In this document: positions 2,312 to 39,922 of the stretch, one piece after another | Layout: every line of letters begins with the position of its first letter | How positions within the stretch are numbered: the stretch's first letter is position 1 | DNA from: Hydrogenophaga sp. | Lineage (GTDB): Bacteria; Pseudomonadota; Gammaproteobacteria; Burkholderiales; Burkholderiaceae_C | Length of the DNA: 64,000 bases | Direction: 5' to 3' | Assembly (NCBI RefSeq): GCF_025699295.1 | Contig: NZ_JAILWB010000003.1 | Span: forward strand, 62,001 to 126,000 | Notes under the pieces: generated by a model | Database searches by the model: none | What the model saw: the letters and a program-made list of their open reading frames with translations, nothing else | Told to the model about the DNA's origin: nothing | Made by a program: the position numbers and the translations under genes

Positions 2312-3340
2312 ATGGCCCTGACGTGGCGCGGCCCGCCGGCCATCAACCTCGCCCTGCAGGGCGGTGGTGCGCACGGCGCCTTCACCTGGGGCGTGCTCGA
2401 CGCCTTGCTGGAAGACGGGCGCCTGCGCTACGACGGCGTGAGCGGCACCAGCGCGGGCGCGATGAACGCCGTGCTGCTGGCGCAGGGCCTGATGGCGGGT
2501 GGAACGCAGGGTGCGCGCGACGCATTGCGCGGCTTCTGGAGCGCGGTGGCCGGCAGCCTGCCTTTCGAGGTCGCGGTGCCCACGGCCGACGGCAAGAACA
2601 TGCGGCTGGCACCGGCGATGCAGCTGATGCTGCAGTGGACGCACTACTTTTCACCCGAGCAGCTCAACCCGTTCGACCTCAATCCGCTGCGCAAGATCCT
2701 GTCGGCGCAGGTGGACTTCGAGCGCTTGCGCGCGCACTGCCCCATCAAGCTGTTCGTGGCGGCCACCAACGTCAACACCGGCAAGCTGCGACTGTTCCGC
2801 GCACCCGAGCTCACGCCCGACGCGGTTCTGGCCTCCGCCTGCCTGCCCACCATGCACCGCAGCGTGGTGATCGAGGGCGAACCGTACTGGGATGGGGGTT
2901 ACGCGGCGAATCCGGCGGTGTTCCCGCTGTTCCACGAGTGCAGCGCGCGCGACATCCTGCTGGTGATGCTCGCGCCGCTCAAGCACAGCGCCACACCGCA
3001 GTCAGCGGCGGACATCAAGAGCCGGATGATGGAACTGGCGTTCAACGCCACGTTCCTGCGAGAGATGCGCATGTTCGCCCACCTGCGCGAACGCGCGGCG
3101 CGCAGCACCTGGTGGCGGCGCGGTGAGCTCGACCGGCGCCTGGCGGGCACGCACTTCCACGTGATCGAGGCCGGAGAGGTCATGGGCGCGTTGAGTACCG
3201 AGAGCAAGGTCGCGGCCAACATGCGCTTCTTCGAGATGCTGTTTGCGCTGGGCCGTGAGCACGGCAGCGCGTGGCTGTCGGCGCACCACGCCGACGTGGG
3301 ACGGCGCAGCAGCGCCGACCTGGGAGCCCTGTTCTACTAG
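2312..3340 (+). CDS. Patatin-like phospholipase
   Basis: This is a 342-residue patatin-fold acyl hydrolase. The oxyanion loop GGGAHG (residues 17-22), the nucleophile elbow GTSAG (Ser47) and the catalytic Asp in DGG (about residue 194) form the usual Ser-Asp dyad. There is no signal peptide, so the enzyme is probably cytosolic or peripheral to the membrane. It most resembles the RssA/YchK-like bacterial patatins, which hydrolyse membrane phospholipids or lysophospholipids; the real substrate is unknown. The start at ATG 2312 lies 6 bases after the DAHP synthase stop. Confidence 0.88.
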   Translation: MALTWRGPPAINLALQGGGAHGAFTWGVLDALLEDGRLRYDGVSGTSAGAMNAVLLAQGLMAGGTQGARDALRGFWSAVAGSLPFEVAVPTADGKNMRLAPAMQLMLQWTHYFSPEQLNPFDLNPLRKILSAQVDFERLRAHCPIKLFVAATNVNTGKLRLFRAPELTPDAVLASACLPTMHRSVVIEGEPYWDGGYAANPAVFPLFHECSARDILLVMLAPLKHSATPQSAADIKSRMMELAFNATFLREMRMFAHLRERAARSTWWRRGELDRRLAGTHFHVIEAGEVMGALSTESKVAANMRFFEMLFALGREHGSAWLSAHHADVGRRSSADLGALFY

Positions 3341-3356: not shown

Positions 3357-3611
3357 TCAGCGCGGCTTGCGCGGCACCATCGGGCCGCGGCCTTCGATGT
3401 GGCGGAAGTTGATGCGGCCCTTGGTCAGGTCGTAGGGCGAGAGTTCCAGCGACACGCGGTCGCCCGCGAGGATGCGGATGTGGTTCTTCTTCATCTTGCC
3501 CGCCGAATAGGCAATCAACTGGTGTCCGTTGTCCAGCGTCACGCGAAAGCGCGTGTCGGGCAGCACCTCGTTGACGATGCCCATCATGTCGATCAGTTCT
3601 TCCTTGGCCAT
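3357..3611 (-). CDS. infA: Translation initiation factor IF-1
   Basis: The 84-residue single S1/OB-fold protein binds the ribosomal A site during initiation. It begins [20 protein letters not shown] and contains the conserved [10 protein letters not shown] and [17 protein letters not shown] blocks. The basic C-terminal tail ([10 protein letters not shown]) is longer than in the 72-residue form that Burkholderiales usually carry in the ribosomal-protein alpha operon, so this is probably the second, isolated IF-1 copy common in this order. No ribosomal-protein genes are near. Confidence 0.93.
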
Positions 3612-3639
3612 GGTGTTTCCTTTGCGTGAAGTGTATCGG

Positions 3640-5399: not shown

Positions 5400-6179
5400 T
5401 CAGTGACCGATGGCGTCGATCACGAGCTTGTCGTCACCGCCGTCGGTGCCGGGCACCAGCCGCACCTGGGCGGTCTTGCCCTGCACCGACTCGGGCAGGG
5501 CGACTTCGCTGGTGCGGTAGATGCCCGCGATGGAAATGAGTTCGGGTGCCATGGAGAGCGCGAAGATGCGCGCGTCGGCATTGCCGCGTGCACCCGCGAT
5601 GGCCTTGCCGCGAAGCGGCGCGTACACATGGATGTGGCCGTCGGCGATAACCTCGGCGCCCGGGTTGACCATGGCCATCACCACCAGGTCGCGACCACGC
5701 GCATACACCTGCTGGCCCGAACGCAGGGGCTTGTCGATCACCAGCGCGCCCGGGATGGGTTCGGGCTGCGCCGGCATCGGCACGGGCTCGGGTGAAGTGG
5801 CGATCTCGGTGGGTGCAAGCACAGGCGCGGTACGCTGCACGCTCGCGTCCGGCGTGGGAGTGAGACCGGCCGCCATGGCCAGCGCGGTCTGCTCGACGGT
5901 CCCGCCGCGCACGGCCAGCGGTGTCAGGCGGTACTGGCGCAGCAGTGTCTGCAGGGCGCCGAAGTCGGGCAGGGCGTTGGCCTCGGCCACATTGAGCGGG
6001 TGCAGGTCGATGACCAGCGGGTCGTGGTCGAAGAAGTCGGGCATGTCGCCGAAGCGTTGGGCGAACTCTTCGGCCAGGCGGTTCAGATCGGACGACTTGA
6101 GCATGAGCGCCACCAGGGGCAGTTGGGCGCTCTTGATTTCGAAGGTGGCGGGCGCGGTTCCTGCGAGGGCAACGGACAT
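5400..6179 (-). CDS. minC: Septum site-determining protein MinC
   Basis: MinC (259 residues) inhibits FtsZ polymerisation where MinD places it. The N-terminal domain (about 1-105) is the FtsZ-antagonist part. A Pro/Thr/Ala-rich linker of about 45 residues precedes the C-terminal right-handed beta-helix (LRSGQQVYARGRDLVVMAMV onward), which carries the R-G-x-A-x-A-G-A-R-G MinD-binding face. The linker is longer than in E. coli, giving a longer protein than its 231 residues. It is the first gene of the min operon. The promoter must lie in the gene-free block 6180-6340. Confidence 0.93.
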   Translation of the reverse strand: MSVALAGTAPATFEIKSAQLPLVALMLKSSDLNRLAEEFAQRFGDMPDFFDHDPLVIDLHPLNVAEANALPDFGALQTLLRQYRLTPLAVRGGTVEQTALAMAAGLTPTPDASVQRTAPVLAPTEIATSPEPVPMPAQPEPIPGALVIDKPLRSGQQVYARGRDLVVMAMVNPGAEVIADGHIHVYAPLRGKAIAGARGNADARIFALSMAPELISIAGIYRTSEVALPESVQGKTAQVRLVPGTDGGDDKLVIDAIGH

Positions 6180-6339
6180 GGGCGAAACGGATCCAATAAC
6201 GGGCCGGCGGCAGGAACGCCGGTGGTGCAGGTCTGTCTGTGACAGCGGCGCATCTTAACAGCCGTTCCATAGCGGTTTCGCAAGCGTCTGTGCGCAGGTG
6301 TCAGGGCATGTTTCAGGGCCACCCGAAGCGTCGCGCGCA

Positions 6340-6560
6340 CAAAGCTGTGTGTAACTTTTGAACAAGTGACAGGTTGTCCACAGACCTCGTTCCAAAGCCA
6401 GAGTTGTCCCCGTTCGCGACCACCGTCGACAGGGCACTTCACACAGCGTTTCGTGTTCCCCAAGTGCTTGTCATGAAAGGAAAAAGGGCGCTTGTCCACA
6501 CCGGACAGCGCCCTCTACTACTACTGCTATCTTTAATTAACAGTATTCATATAGGAGAGA
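6340..6560 (+). other. oriC: Candidate replication origin: DnaA-box-like 9-mers, GC hairpin, DnaA-trio-like run, AT-rich tract
   Basis: Three 9-mers one base away from the DnaA consensus TTATNCACA are seen: TGTGTGTAA 6346-6354 (reverse), TTGTCCACA 6374-6382 and TTGTCCACA 6492-6500. The last is followed by a GC-rich segment to 6513, then five trinucleotides TAC TAC TAC TGC TAT (6516-6530). An AT-rich stretch with TTTAATTAA and ATTCATATA follows to 6555. This order (box, GC cluster, trios, AT-rich) is that of the basal unwinding system described for bacterial origins. parAB, parS-like sites and mnmG-rsmG within 40 kb fit an origin-proximal place. No dnaA gene is in the window, which is why confidence is limited. 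Confidence 0.5.
6473..6513 (-). terminator. Rho-independent terminator downstream of the Spy-like gene
   Basis: The stem 6486-6491/6508-6513 (GGGCGC) extends through 6493-6497/6503-6507 with one bulged base and a 5-base loop. On the minus strand it is followed by TTTTTCCTTT (6485-6476). It would end transcripts of the gene at 6582-7211. The same hairpin encloses a DnaA-box-like 9-mer, so it may serve the origin-like block instead or as well. Confidence 0.6.
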
Positions 6561-6581
6561 GGAAAGCGGAAACGACCCCGG

Positions 6582-7211
6582 TCACGCCGGCTGCTTCGCG
6601 CCCTCGTGAGCACCATGCCGATGGAAGTGGTGGTGTTTTCCGCCATGCTGTCGCTGCATGCCGGCACGCTGGAAGCCCGGCAGACGTTTCGAATCGAAGA
6701 CCTTCTGCTGTTCGGCGTCGAGCGCGGCGTAGAAGCTGCGAATGGCGTCGGCGCGCTGGTCCATGGCGGCGCTGCGCGCCGTCTCGCGGGCCTTCATCCG
6801 GTCCAGGCGCTCGGGCGTGGTCAGTCCGGACCAGTCTTCGCGCTTGTCCTGGCGCATGGCGGTACGGGCTTGCGGCTGGGTACGTGCCACGAAGGCGTTC
6901 CAGGCCGGTTCCTGTGCCGGGGTGATCTTCAGTTCGGCCTTGAAGGCGGCCTGGCGCTCGGCCAGCTTCTGCTGCATGCGGGCCACGCGTTCGGCACGGC
7001 GCTGCTCGCGCTTGGCGTCGCGCTGTGCGGCGTCGGGTGCCGCGGGCTGGGCCGTCTGGGCAGGGGTGGTGGCCTGGGCCAGCAGGCTGGAGCCGGCGGT
7101 GACCTGGGCCGGGTGCAGGGTCGTGGCCTGCACGATTGCAGTGGCGCTGAGTCCGGCCAGTGCGGTGGCCAGTGCCGTGGCGAGAAGGGCGCGTTTCGGA
7201 AGCGTTGTCAT
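6582..7211 (-). CDS. Spy/CpxP-like (LTXXQ) periplasmic protein
   Basis: The 209-residue protein has a signal peptide of about 30 residues and an Ala/Pro/Gln linker. It then has a long, highly charged helical region with LKITPAQEPAWNAF and two further helices, the pattern of LTXXQ-motif periplasmic chaperones such as Spy and CpxP. These respond to envelope stress and metals. The His-rich C-terminus (HGGKHHHFHRHGAH) could bind copper or other metals, which fits the neighbouring copper genes. AGGAG stands about 7 bases before ATG 7211. The link to copper is inferred from context. Confidence 0.75.
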   Translation of the reverse strand: MTTLPKRALLATALATALAGLSATAIVQATTLHPAQVTAGSSLLAQATTPAQTAQPAAPDAAQRDAKREQRRAERVARMQQKLAERQAAFKAELKITPAQEPAWNAFVARTQPQARTAMRQDKREDWSGLTTPERLDRMKARETARSAAMDQRADAIRSFYAALDAEQQKVFDSKRLPGFQRAGMQRQHGGKHHHFHRHGAHEGAKQPA

Positions 7212-7275
7212 GGAGGACTCCTGTGGTTGTTGAAGAAGAATCTCCACAGGACCTGGTGTTGGCTGCGGAGTGGTT

Positions 7276-7803
7276 TCAGTGTCGGGTGCGGGTGTTTCCG
7301 CTCCGTGCCGCCGGTGTGGCGGGCTTGTAAATTTTTGTCCCACTTCGTGCAGCAAATGTGGACGCGGGGTGGCTCAGGTCGTCCAGGATCGGGCAATCGG
7401 GCCGACCATCACCGGGGCACAGGTGCAGCAGGTGACCCAGGGTGCGCTGCATGGCCTGCAGGGCTTCGATGCGCTGGGCCAGGTCGTCCAGGTGTTTCTG
7501 GGTGATGCGCTTGACACTCGCGCTGCTGCGCTTGCGGTTGTGCCACAGGCTCACGAGCTCGGTGATGGCGTCCAGGCCGAAGCCCATGTCGCGCGCGCGC
7601 CGGATGAAGCGCAGCGTGTGCACGTCGGCCAGACCGTACTGGCGGTAGTTGCTGTCGGTGCGCGGTACCTCGGCGAGCAGGCCCAGCGACTCGTAGTGGC
7701 GCAGCATCTTGGGCGAAATGCCGCTGAGTTGCGCCGCCCTGCCGATGTTCACCGGCCAGCGGATGAGCGCGTCGCTGGCCGTGTTGTTGTCGTCGTCGTC
7801 CAT
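7276..7803 (-). CDS. cueR: MerR-family copper-responsive regulator (CueR-like)
   Basis: This 175-residue activator has an N-terminal MerR winged helix (VNIGRAAQLSGISPKMLRHYESLGLL), a long dimerisation helix, and a C-terminal metal loop C-P-G-D-G-R-P-D-C. The two Cys with seven residues between them are the Cu(I) pair of CueR. The family bends promoters with 19-bp spacers, and two such promoters are present at 8037-8067 and 8106-8136. It starts 2 bases after the copZ stop, so it is cotranscribed with copZ and probably autoregulated. The 25-residue tail after the metal loop is variable in this family. Confidence 0.88.
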   Translation of the reverse strand: MDDDDNNTASDALIRWPVNIGRAAQLSGISPKMLRHYESLGLLAEVPRTDSNYRQYGLADVHTLRFIRRARDMGFGLDAITELVSLWHNRKRSSASVKRITQKHLDDLAQRIEALQAMQRTLGHLLHLCPGDGRPDCPILDDLSHPASTFAARSGTKIYKPATPAARSGNTRTRH

Positions 7804-37945: not shown

Positions 37946-39922
37946 ATGTTGTACCCACAGGAATTCGATGTCATCGTCGTCGGCGGCGGGCACGCCGGCA
38001 CCGAAGCCGCGCTGGCCGCCGCGCGCATGGGCTGCGCCACGCTGCTGCTCACGCACAACATCGAGACCCTGGGCCAGATGAGCTGCAACCCGTCGATCGG
38101 CGGCATCGGCAAGGGCCACCTGGTGAAAGAGGTGGACGCACTCGGCGGCGCGATGGCGCTGGCCACCGACGAAGGCGGCATCCAGTTCCGCATCCTCAAC
38201 AGTTCCAAGGGCCCGGCCGTGCGCGCCACCCGCGCCCAGGCCGACCGCGTGCTCTACAAGGCCGCGGTCCGCCGCACGCTGGAAAACCAGCCGAACCTCT
38301 GGCTGTTCCAGCAGGCGGTGGACGATCTGATGATCGAAGGTGACCGTGTGGTGGGCGCTGTGACGCAAGTGGGCATTCGCTTTCGCGGTCGCACGGTGGT
38401 GCTGACCGCCGGCACCTTCCTGGACGGCAAGATCCACGTCGGCCTGAACAACTACGCCGCCGGCCGCGCGGGGGATCCGCCGGCGGTGTCGCTCTCGGCG
38501 CGCCTGAAGGAACTGAAACTGCCCCAGGGCCGCCTGAAGACCGGCACGCCGCCGCGCCTGGACGGCCGCAGCATCGACTATTCGAAGTGCACCGAGCAGC
38601 CCGGCGACGGCGTGCCCGGCGGCATGAACCCGGACAAGCCGGTGCCGGTGTTCAGCTTCTTGGGGCAAACGGCCATGCACCCGCGCCAGGTGCCGTGCTG
38701 GATCACCCACACCAATGAACGCACGCACGAGATCATCCGCTCCGGCTTCGACCGCAGCCCCATGTTCACCGGCAAGATCGAGGGCGTGGGCCCGCGCTAC
38801 TGCCCGAGCGTGGAGGACAAGATCAACCGCTTCGCCGACAAGGACAGCCACCAGATCTTCCTGGAGCCCGAGGGTCTGACGACGCACGAGGTCTACCCCA
38901 ACGGCATCTCGACCAGCCTGCCGTTCGACATCCAGTACCAGCTGGTGCGCAGCATGGCCGGGCTGGAGAACGCGCATATCCTGCGCCCGGGCTACGCCAT
39001 CGAGTACGACTACTTCGACCCGCGCTCGCTCAAGAGCAGCTTCGAGACGAAGCAGATCCAGGGCCTGTTCTTCGCGGGGCAGATCAACGGCACCACCGGC
39101 TACGAAGAGGCGGCGGCCCAGGGCCTGTTCGCCGGCATCAACGCCGCGCTGCAGTGCCGTGGCGAAGCAGCCTGGCTGCCGCGCCGCGACGAGGCCTACC
39201 TGGGCGTGCTGGTCGACGACCTCGTGACCCAGGGCGTGACCGAGCCCTACCGCATGTTCACCAGCCGCGCCGAGTTCAGGCTGCAGCTGCGCGAGGACAA
39301 CGCCGACATGCGCCTGACCGAGGCCGGCCGCCACCTGGGCCTGGTCGACGACGCGCGCTGGGACGCGTTCTGCCGCAAGCGCGACGCGGTGGCCCGCGAA
39401 ACCGAACGCCTGAAGGCGACCTGGGTGAACCCGCGCAACCTGCCGGCGCAAGAGGGCGAGCGCGTGCTGGGCAAGGCCATCGAGCACGAGCACAACCTGT
39501 TCGACCTGCTGCGCCGCCCGGGCGTGGCCTACGCGGATCTGGTCGGCATGGACGGCGGCAAGTACGCGGCGGCCGAGGTTTCACGTGAAACATTGGCCGA
39601 CCTGCTGGAGCCGGTGGTGGAGCAGCTGGAGATCGCGGCCAAGTACTCGGGCTACATCGACCGGCAGAAGAACGAAGTGGAGCGCGCCGCCCACTACGAG
39701 GGCCTGAAGTTGCCGGCCGACCTGGACTACCTGCAGGTTGCGGCGCTGTCTTTCGAGGCACGGCAGAAGCTGGCCCAGCACCGCCCCGAAACCCTGGGGC
39801 AGGCCTCGCGCATCTCGGGCATCACGCCCGCGAGCATTTCGCTGCTGCTGATCCATCTGAAGAAGGGTGGCTTCAAGGGCTTTGCCACGGTGCCGGCCGC
39901 TGCGGACGCCGCCGAGGCATGA
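37946..39922 (+). CDS. mnmG: tRNA uridine-5-carboxymethylaminomethyl(34) synthesis enzyme MnmG
   Basis: This 658-residue FAD protein works with MnmE to modify the wobble uridine of several tRNAs. FAD binding is at [19 protein letters not shown]. The family blocks [45 protein letters not shown] and the C-terminal [14 protein letters not shown] are all present. ATG 37946 is the family start. A parS-like site lies inside the gene at 39577-39592, encoding VSRET. The gene overlaps rsmG by 4 bases. Confidence 0.97.
39577..39592. other. parS-like site 1, inside mnmG
   Basis: GGTTTCACGTGAAACA differs from the parS consensus TGTTTCACGTGAAACA only at the first base. It is within the mnmG coding region, 3 kb from parB. 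Confidence 0.75.

Follow-up and report, generated by a model that had tools for sequence, protein, structure and literature searches.

In the published search for the basal unwinding system (BUS) of bacterial oriC, as its description has it, DnaA-trios were considered when at most 16 bp separated them from a DnaA box (PMC8287927); the BUS is treated also in PMC6669920 and PMC10721633. Origins of replication located apart from dnaA are presented as established in the relevant passages of two sources (PMC4285127, section 4; PMC9584773). For example, the oriC of Escherichia coli is described as lying in a gene context other than that of dnaA (PMC4285127, section 4), and a cyanobacterial example is mentioned in an account of DoriC (PMC6323995). 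Chromosome 1 of Cupriavidus metallidurans CH34 is described as having a skew transition at ~90 kb from the dnaA-dnaN-gyrB cluster, adjoining three DnaA boxes that lie within 213 nt (PMC2864759). Among the matches listed in the open-access literature, we found no paper that deals with the Hydrogenophaga oriC or with an origin displaced to the vicinity of minC.

The locus analyzed here belongs to a 64,000-nucleotide stretch of DNA from Hydrogenophaga sp. (hereinafter, the window) that corresponds to bases 62001-126000 of the contig C23 (299,811 bases) in a genome of 4.69 Mb assembled in 42 contigs (G000). By minC, the best-matching named relatives, among the 80 best loci, are Hydrogenophaga. The initial annotation pointed to an origin-like block in a gene-free stretch beside minC; in C23, this block lies at ~68.4 kb. 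The gene-free character of this stretch is borne out: between the minC start at 6179 and the end of the LTXXQ-family gene at 6582, there is no supportable gene, and the block is overlapped only by two mechanical ORFs (6083-6499 on the minus strand and 6374-6925 on the plus strand), taken from the ORF list. The LTXXQ-family gene is followed by that of a MerR regulator. Positions 6346-6555 of the window comprise a complete origin unwinding module in the canonical order, namely, boxes, GC-rich spacer, trios and AT-rich DNA. The features of the block and the two adjacent genes are the following:

5400-6179, minus strand: minC (Pfam MinC_C and MinC_N), the left neighbor, with its start 161 bp from position 6340
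6346-6354, minus strand: weak DnaA box TTACACACA, the counterpart of a box that many relatives have 28 bp ahead of the 6374 box
6374-6382, plus strand: DnaA box TTGTCCACA, one mismatch from TTATCCACA, which relatives often have
6404-6409, plus strand: conserved partial box-like motif TTGTCC, from the alignment of 18 modules
6440-6473, plus strand: two inter-box motifs conserved in alignments, CACACAG and CAAGTGCTTGTCA (the latter often CAAGTCCTTGAT)
6440-6542, plus strand: match to the sequence model R1 (see below), 85.3 bits, unique within both the contig and the genome, with the window among the training sequences
6483-6516, minus strand: GC-rich inverted repeat around the 6492 box, followed by TTTTT on the minus strand; terminator-like for the LTXXQ-family gene and the GC cluster of the module
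6492-6500, plus strand: trio-side DnaA box TTGTCCACA, one mismatch from TTATCCACA, the presumed DnaA loading box
6501-6514, plus strand: GC-rich spacer of 14 nt after the 6492 box
6515-6529, plus strand: five DnaA-trios CTA CTA CTA CTG CTA (on the other strand, 3'-GAT GAT GAT GAC GAT-5')
6530-6555, plus strand: AT-rich tract, presumably the first DNA to melt, AT-rich by eye also in the 18-module alignment
6582-7343, minus strand: LTXXQ-family gene (Pfam LTXXQ), the right neighbor, reading towards the block, start codon uncertain

The intergenic block contains a cluster of three DnaA boxes, two with one mismatch and one with two mismatches, in a span of 155 bp. The initial annotation counted three one-mismatch boxes, which is correct for those at 6374 and 6492 but not for the one at 6346-6354 (TGTGTGTAA on the minus strand): this box differs from TTATCCACA in two positions and is one mismatch away only under the relaxed DnaA-box consensus TTWTNCACA. 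At the position of this weak box, the aligned relatives read, for example, TGTGTATAA or TGTGGATAA. The boxes at 6374 and 6492 are 118 bp apart; in the conserved segment between them, CAAGTGCTTGTCA at 6461-6473 is CAAGTCCTTGAT in many relatives. The five trios start after a 14-nt spacer, that is, within 16 bp of a DnaA box, and read away from it. Two side-by-side boxes at the trios are absent; there is a single box (at most two mismatches) near the trios, and the next one lies 118 bp upstream. The hairpin, the five trinucleotides and the AT-rich tract reported at the outset are all real, the original TAC/TGC/TAT being the CTA and CTG trios read in another phase, and the order that was likened to the basal unwinding module (box, GC cluster, trios, AT-rich DNA) recurs across the genus and the family.

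The hairpin at 6483-6516 has a folding energy of -23.9 kcal/mol (z = -3.7), and only 1 of 200 shuffled sequences folds as well. On the minus strand, TTTTT comes right after the stem, the site scores as terminator-like, and the LTXXQ-family gene is transcribed into it, so that the hairpin might be a mere intrinsic terminator of this gene, with boxes and trios occurring nearby by chance. However, in four relatives (L069, L070, L081 and L083), the GGGCGC/GCGCCC arms are gone and the box, a 13-15-nt spacer and the trios are kept; hence, the stem is not the core of the module. Furthermore, a terminator explains neither the box spacing nor the copies of the module in the dnaA-dnaN gap described below. 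The terminator-only reading was rejected, and we consider its probability to be virtually nil. A double role, as a terminator and as a part of the origin, is possible, and the terminator-like stem may also shield the origin from transcription.

As for chance occurrence of the other elements, the pattern TTRTCCACA is found 28 times in the 4.69 Mb of the genome compared to 27 times for the reversed control pattern, so that boxes are not enriched genome-wide. From these 28 sites, we estimate that ~0.02 close pairs (within 150 bp) would be expected by chance in the entire genome, and three were observed, namely, in the block, in the dnaA promoter and at C41:98072/98204. The C41 pair, which consists of two TTGTCCACA boxes on opposite strands of the window genome without a model match, is a candidate site of DnaA titration or control. 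In the 300-kb contig, the block is the only place where a box with at most one mismatch is followed, 8-20 nt on, by CTACTACTA. A scan of stretches totaling 1.99 Mb from three relatives likewise yielded a single occurrence of this pattern, in the complete congener G024, at the site homologous to the block; the modules of the other two relatives, G147 and G282, lie outside the scanned stretches. Chance was rejected as the source of the boxes and trios.

The conservation of the trio run and of the spacing in relatives, which the initial annotation proposed as a check, is seen across the genus and the family. The minC-upstream regions were sampled as 900 bp from each of the 80 best loci, of which 76 were examined (L067, L074, L075 and L095, with short flanks, were left out). 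At 13 of the 76 loci (L055-L063, L069, L070, L081 and L094), two boxes, in some cases including a one-mismatch box, are located exactly 118 bp apart in the same orientation as in the window, and in L090 and L100, the module is inverted upstream of minC. The other minC-upstream loci contain no module within 900 bp; in several of these, it was located farther off by R1, a sequence-only model of 106 positions that was trained on 18 modules including the one in the window. According to R1, the module is present in the fetched DNA of 39 of the 80 minC loci, counted as distinct loci. The conserved parts in the alignment of the 18 modules are a box, TTATCCACA, TT.TCC, CACAG, CAAGTCCTTGAT, a box, the spacer and the trios, and the remainder is variable.

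Within the genus, R1 matches 63 of the 67 genomes, the window genome included; 48 of these have a single match and 15 have two or three. Across the family, the model matches 370 of the 398 sampled genomes (completeness at least 95%) from 111 of the 115 genera, the genomes that supplied training modules, which match by construction, being a small part of the 398; the 28 family genomes missed by R1 count against the origin reading. In other families of the order, for which 23 of the 24 genomes in the set were searched (G041 was left out), 5 of the 23 yielded weak matches and 18 none. Usually, one place or a few neighboring places per genome match the model, and many relatives have 2-4 matches, some of them kilobases apart. 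A strict pattern retrieved the box and trios from 59 of the 82 module loci, which are the best matches and not a random sample, with the upstream box at a distance of 118 bp in 39 cases and 119 bp in 15; the other 23 loci, identified as R1 matches, are missed by the pattern, and some of them have trios that it disallows.

The 64-kb window contains no dnaA match. This gene was found on the same contig, at C23:18398-19744, so that the block lacks direct linkage to dnaA, the end of which is 48.6 kb to the left of window position 6340; this agrees with the initial expectation of a separation greater than 6 kb should dnaA lie on the left. In the window genome, dnaA ends near C23:19750 and dnaN starts at C23:19860, and the gap between the two contains no box. 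Elsewhere in the family, the module can occupy this gap. We compared module positions in 40 complete, single-contig family genomes that were picked as R1-positive from 46 listed (left out were G342, which has no R1 match, G307, G331, G394, G453 and the congener G025); because of this preselection, the presence of the module in 40 of 40 gives no frequency. In 14 of the 40 genomes, the module resides in the dnaA-dnaN gap, with the match starting 123-301 bp from the end of the dnaA match (for example, L233, L247 and L250). Both dnaA and dnaN were read beside the module in 10 of 11 gap loci, the exception being L230, where the contig start cuts off dnaA; the placement in G194, G253 and G335 rests on coordinates. 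In G304, the match and dnaA are on either side of the contig start, and this genome, which would otherwise score as displaced, was counted among the 14 because L230 holds dnaN beside the module.

In 25 of the 40 genomes, the nearest copy of the module is 16-504 kb away from dnaA, the most distant one, in G426, being a weak match of 27.9 bits. The one remaining genome, G186, carries a copy upstream of dnaA across the contig start (~0.3 kb, as judged from coordinates and the extent of L255 only) and another copy 13 kb off, beside minC. Of the 23 other module loci, comprising displaced ones (21, with two congeners among them) and the dnaA-upstream copy of G186, 10 encode a homolog of LTXXQ, MerR or minC within the 1.5-kb flanks. 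These neighbors suggest shared descent of the displaced position, with the caveat that the LTXXQ matches, at 39-53% identity, could include paralogs. A minC match was obtained in 37 of the 40 genomes; minC adjoins the module in G103, G270, G282 and G186 and is far off in others, across several genera. The dnaA-dnaN gap was presumably the ancestral place of the module, from which the origin would have moved.

A different interpretation of these placements is that, in the window genome, the true origin is at dnaA (C23:18.2-18.4k, with the rpmH-dnaA box pair), and the block beside minC is a DnaA-binding regulatory site, either a titration or reactivation locus like datA/DARS or a site of DnaA control of minC. 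The dnaA-dnaN-gyrB layout is, indeed, classical, and the dnaA promoter contains TTATCCACA and TTGTCCACA, 49 bp apart (C23:18251/18300) and 50 bp apart in G024. However, these promoter boxes come without trios (by eye) and without an R1 match, whereas the block is a full unwinding module, and it is this same module that elsewhere sits between dnaA and dnaN. Nor is the module tied to minC, which is 19-20 kb away from it in G025 and far from it in several genera. Taking into account also the skew and parS data below, we regard the dnaA-located origin as very unlikely. The box pair upstream of dnaA, at C23:18251-18308 in the window genome and devoid of trios, probably serves dnaA autoregulation.

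The evidence from strand composition is mixed. The leading-strand gene layout originally invoked around the block turned out to be weak: in heuristic ORF calls, the plus strand carries 60% of the predicted coding bases in the 50 kb to the right of the block and 47% from dnaA up to the block. The genes surrounding the block thus show no uniform orientation, which counts against an origin there, as does the location of dnaA-dnaN-gyrB on the plus strand to the left of the block, that is, head-on to forks from the block. Whole-chromosome skew is not computable for the window genome because the assembly consists of 42 contigs. Within C23, the cumulative skew reaches its minimum at 38147, at a distance of 20 kb from dnaA and 30 kb from the block; thus, the minimum within a few kilobases of the block that the origin reading predicted is not seen in this contig, where the skew is too weak to be decisive, and the right-arm-like skew at 38-68 kb counts against the block as well. 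In G024 (module at 4300.0k and dnaA at 4358.4-4359.8k), the lowest point over the 400 kb analyzed falls at 4429663, separated by 130 kb from the module and by 70 kb from dnaA, on the side of the latter. Both minima favor dnaA, but the skew in C23 and G024 was set aside as undecided because it fluctuates locally over distances as large as the 50-60 kb between the two sites.

The largest distances between the module and dnaA among the 40 genomes, apart from the weak G426, are those in G147 and G282, and for these, we fitted the position of the skew switch; raw skew was used because the third-codon-position skew in both genomes was too noisy. In G147, the modules, at 394.7 and 398.8 kb, are 260 kb away from dnaA, which is at 134 kb. 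The sampled skew has the same value, -0.011, to the left of dnaA and in the interval from dnaA to the module, and it is +0.017 over the 140 kb that adjoin the module on the right. A fit assuming that the terminus is opposite the origin puts the best switch at 385-400 kb, at the module, with dnaA worse by ~9 log-likelihood units, and the module is preferred in 97.7% of 300 bootstraps; for the position of the switch, the bootstraps give a wide 5-95% range, 30-445 kb, and the next best position is 260 kb. In G282, where the module is at 673 kb and dnaA at 972 kb, the module is favored by 3.4 log units and in 83% of 500 bootstraps. The skew is -0.015 to the left of the module and +0.007 from the module to dnaA; to the right of dnaA, it is -0.002 instead of positive, which counts against the module. 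Overall, the skew in G282 leans towards following the module, less firmly than in G147.

The parS-like sites, identified with the parS consensus, also argue against an origin at dnaA. Within the stretches scanned, such sites were found in three of the four genomes (G000, G024 and G147), and in each of these, they are nearer to the module than to dnaA. In the window genome, they are at C23:101.6-104.1k, 33-36 kb from the block and 82-84 kb from dnaA, corresponding to window positions 39577, 40505 and 42092 (one mismatch each) in the mnmG-rsmG-parA stretch; in G024, at 4267-4270k, 30-33 kb from the module vs ~90 kb from dnaA; and in G147, at 419.7-422.3k, 21-28 kb from the modules vs ~285 kb from dnaA. 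No parS was detected in the scanned stretches of G282.

We conclude that the block is, with high probability, the chromosomal oriC of this Hydrogenophaga-type bacterium, as predicted from its sequence. The displaced-origin reading draws its support from the parts of the module and their conserved order and spacing, the single model match, the homology with the module in the dnaA-dnaN gap and the skew switch in a relative, G147. In this strain, DnaA binding, melting and replication start would all take place at the block. DnaA would bind the boxes at 6346, 6374 and 6492, and a DnaA-ATP filament would be guided from the 6492 box past the GC-rich spacer to reach the trios (6515-6529); the filament would then open the AT-rich DNA at 6530-6555, where the helicase would be loaded. 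The upstream half-module (the box pair and CAAGTCCTTGAT) probably nucleates DnaA or else is bound by a bending or control protein.

The newest part of these findings is the presence of double and triple modules, with two or three R1 matches 0.3-29 kb apart, in 19 of the 40 complete genomes (in G186, around the contig start). Five loci, namely, L064 (Hydrogenophaga taeniospiralis, with twin modules at 2927-3028 and 3515-3615 on the minus strand), L072, L073, L078 and L080, contain diverged tandem copies separated by a few hundred bases, with the upstream box, spacer, box and trios, including a variant trio in some. L078 has, in addition, a third module ~6 kb away. In G320, one copy is in the dnaA-dnaN gap and another 29 kb away (C1:2386122 and 2357560), and the G186 copies are at C1:4936357 and 14646. 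These two genomes possibly represent halfway stages of origin relocation, for which duplication followed by loss would be a plausible route. Given that the element occupies the dnaA-dnaN gap in some genomes and other sites in others, and may be present in two or three copies, the relocation route becomes testable.

The multiplicity of modules raises the question of whether the block is only one of several active origins, sharing initiation with unrecognized sites, which would be compatible with its identification as oriC. At least two R1 matches were found in the 19 complete relatives mentioned above, and two or three in 15 of the 67 genus genomes; the window genome, however, has a single match, with no second one in the 300-kb contig, and for the block, we deem this interpretation extremely improbable. 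For the family at large, we put forward, tentatively and with doubts outweighing confidence, that oriC is a portable ~200-bp cassette subject to duplication and to displacement inside the region around the origin, such that initiation may be shared or switched between diverged cassettes. If so, G320 and G186 are relocations caught midway. With the block taken as oriC, the module provides a sequence handle on the origin for a large family in which dnaA is an obvious but often wrong origin marker; this matters for read-depth growth-rate estimates, for work on strand bias, and for the choice of where genome records are opened.

Compared with the described BUS, the block has the same succession of a DnaA box, a spacer of at most 16 bp, a run of 3'-GAT-5' trios and AT-rich DNA (PMC8287927). 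Unlike the BUS of Bacillus subtilis, which is described with the neighboring boxes #6 and #7 (PMC8287927), the block has one box at the trios, and it differs from the BUS also by the addition of a conserved half-module 118 bp upstream. The C. metallidurans region and the block both come from Burkholderiales and have boxes apart from dnaA (PMC2864759). The C. metallidurans description includes boxes, without trios or a family-wide module (PMC2864759). The modules in the dnaA-dnaN gap of other family members (for example, L233, L247 and L250) fit the same R1 model as the block, with matches that start 134-248 bp from where the dnaA match ends, and are not displaced. The E. coli oriC, which is located ~44 kb from dnaA in the mnmG-mioC context, resembles the block in its separation from the dnaA-dnaN cluster, which is of similar size, and differs from it in the architecture of the boxes and the unwinding region and in its neighbors. 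Thus, the displaced origin as such is already known, from E. coli and Cupriavidus, and the block would add another case.
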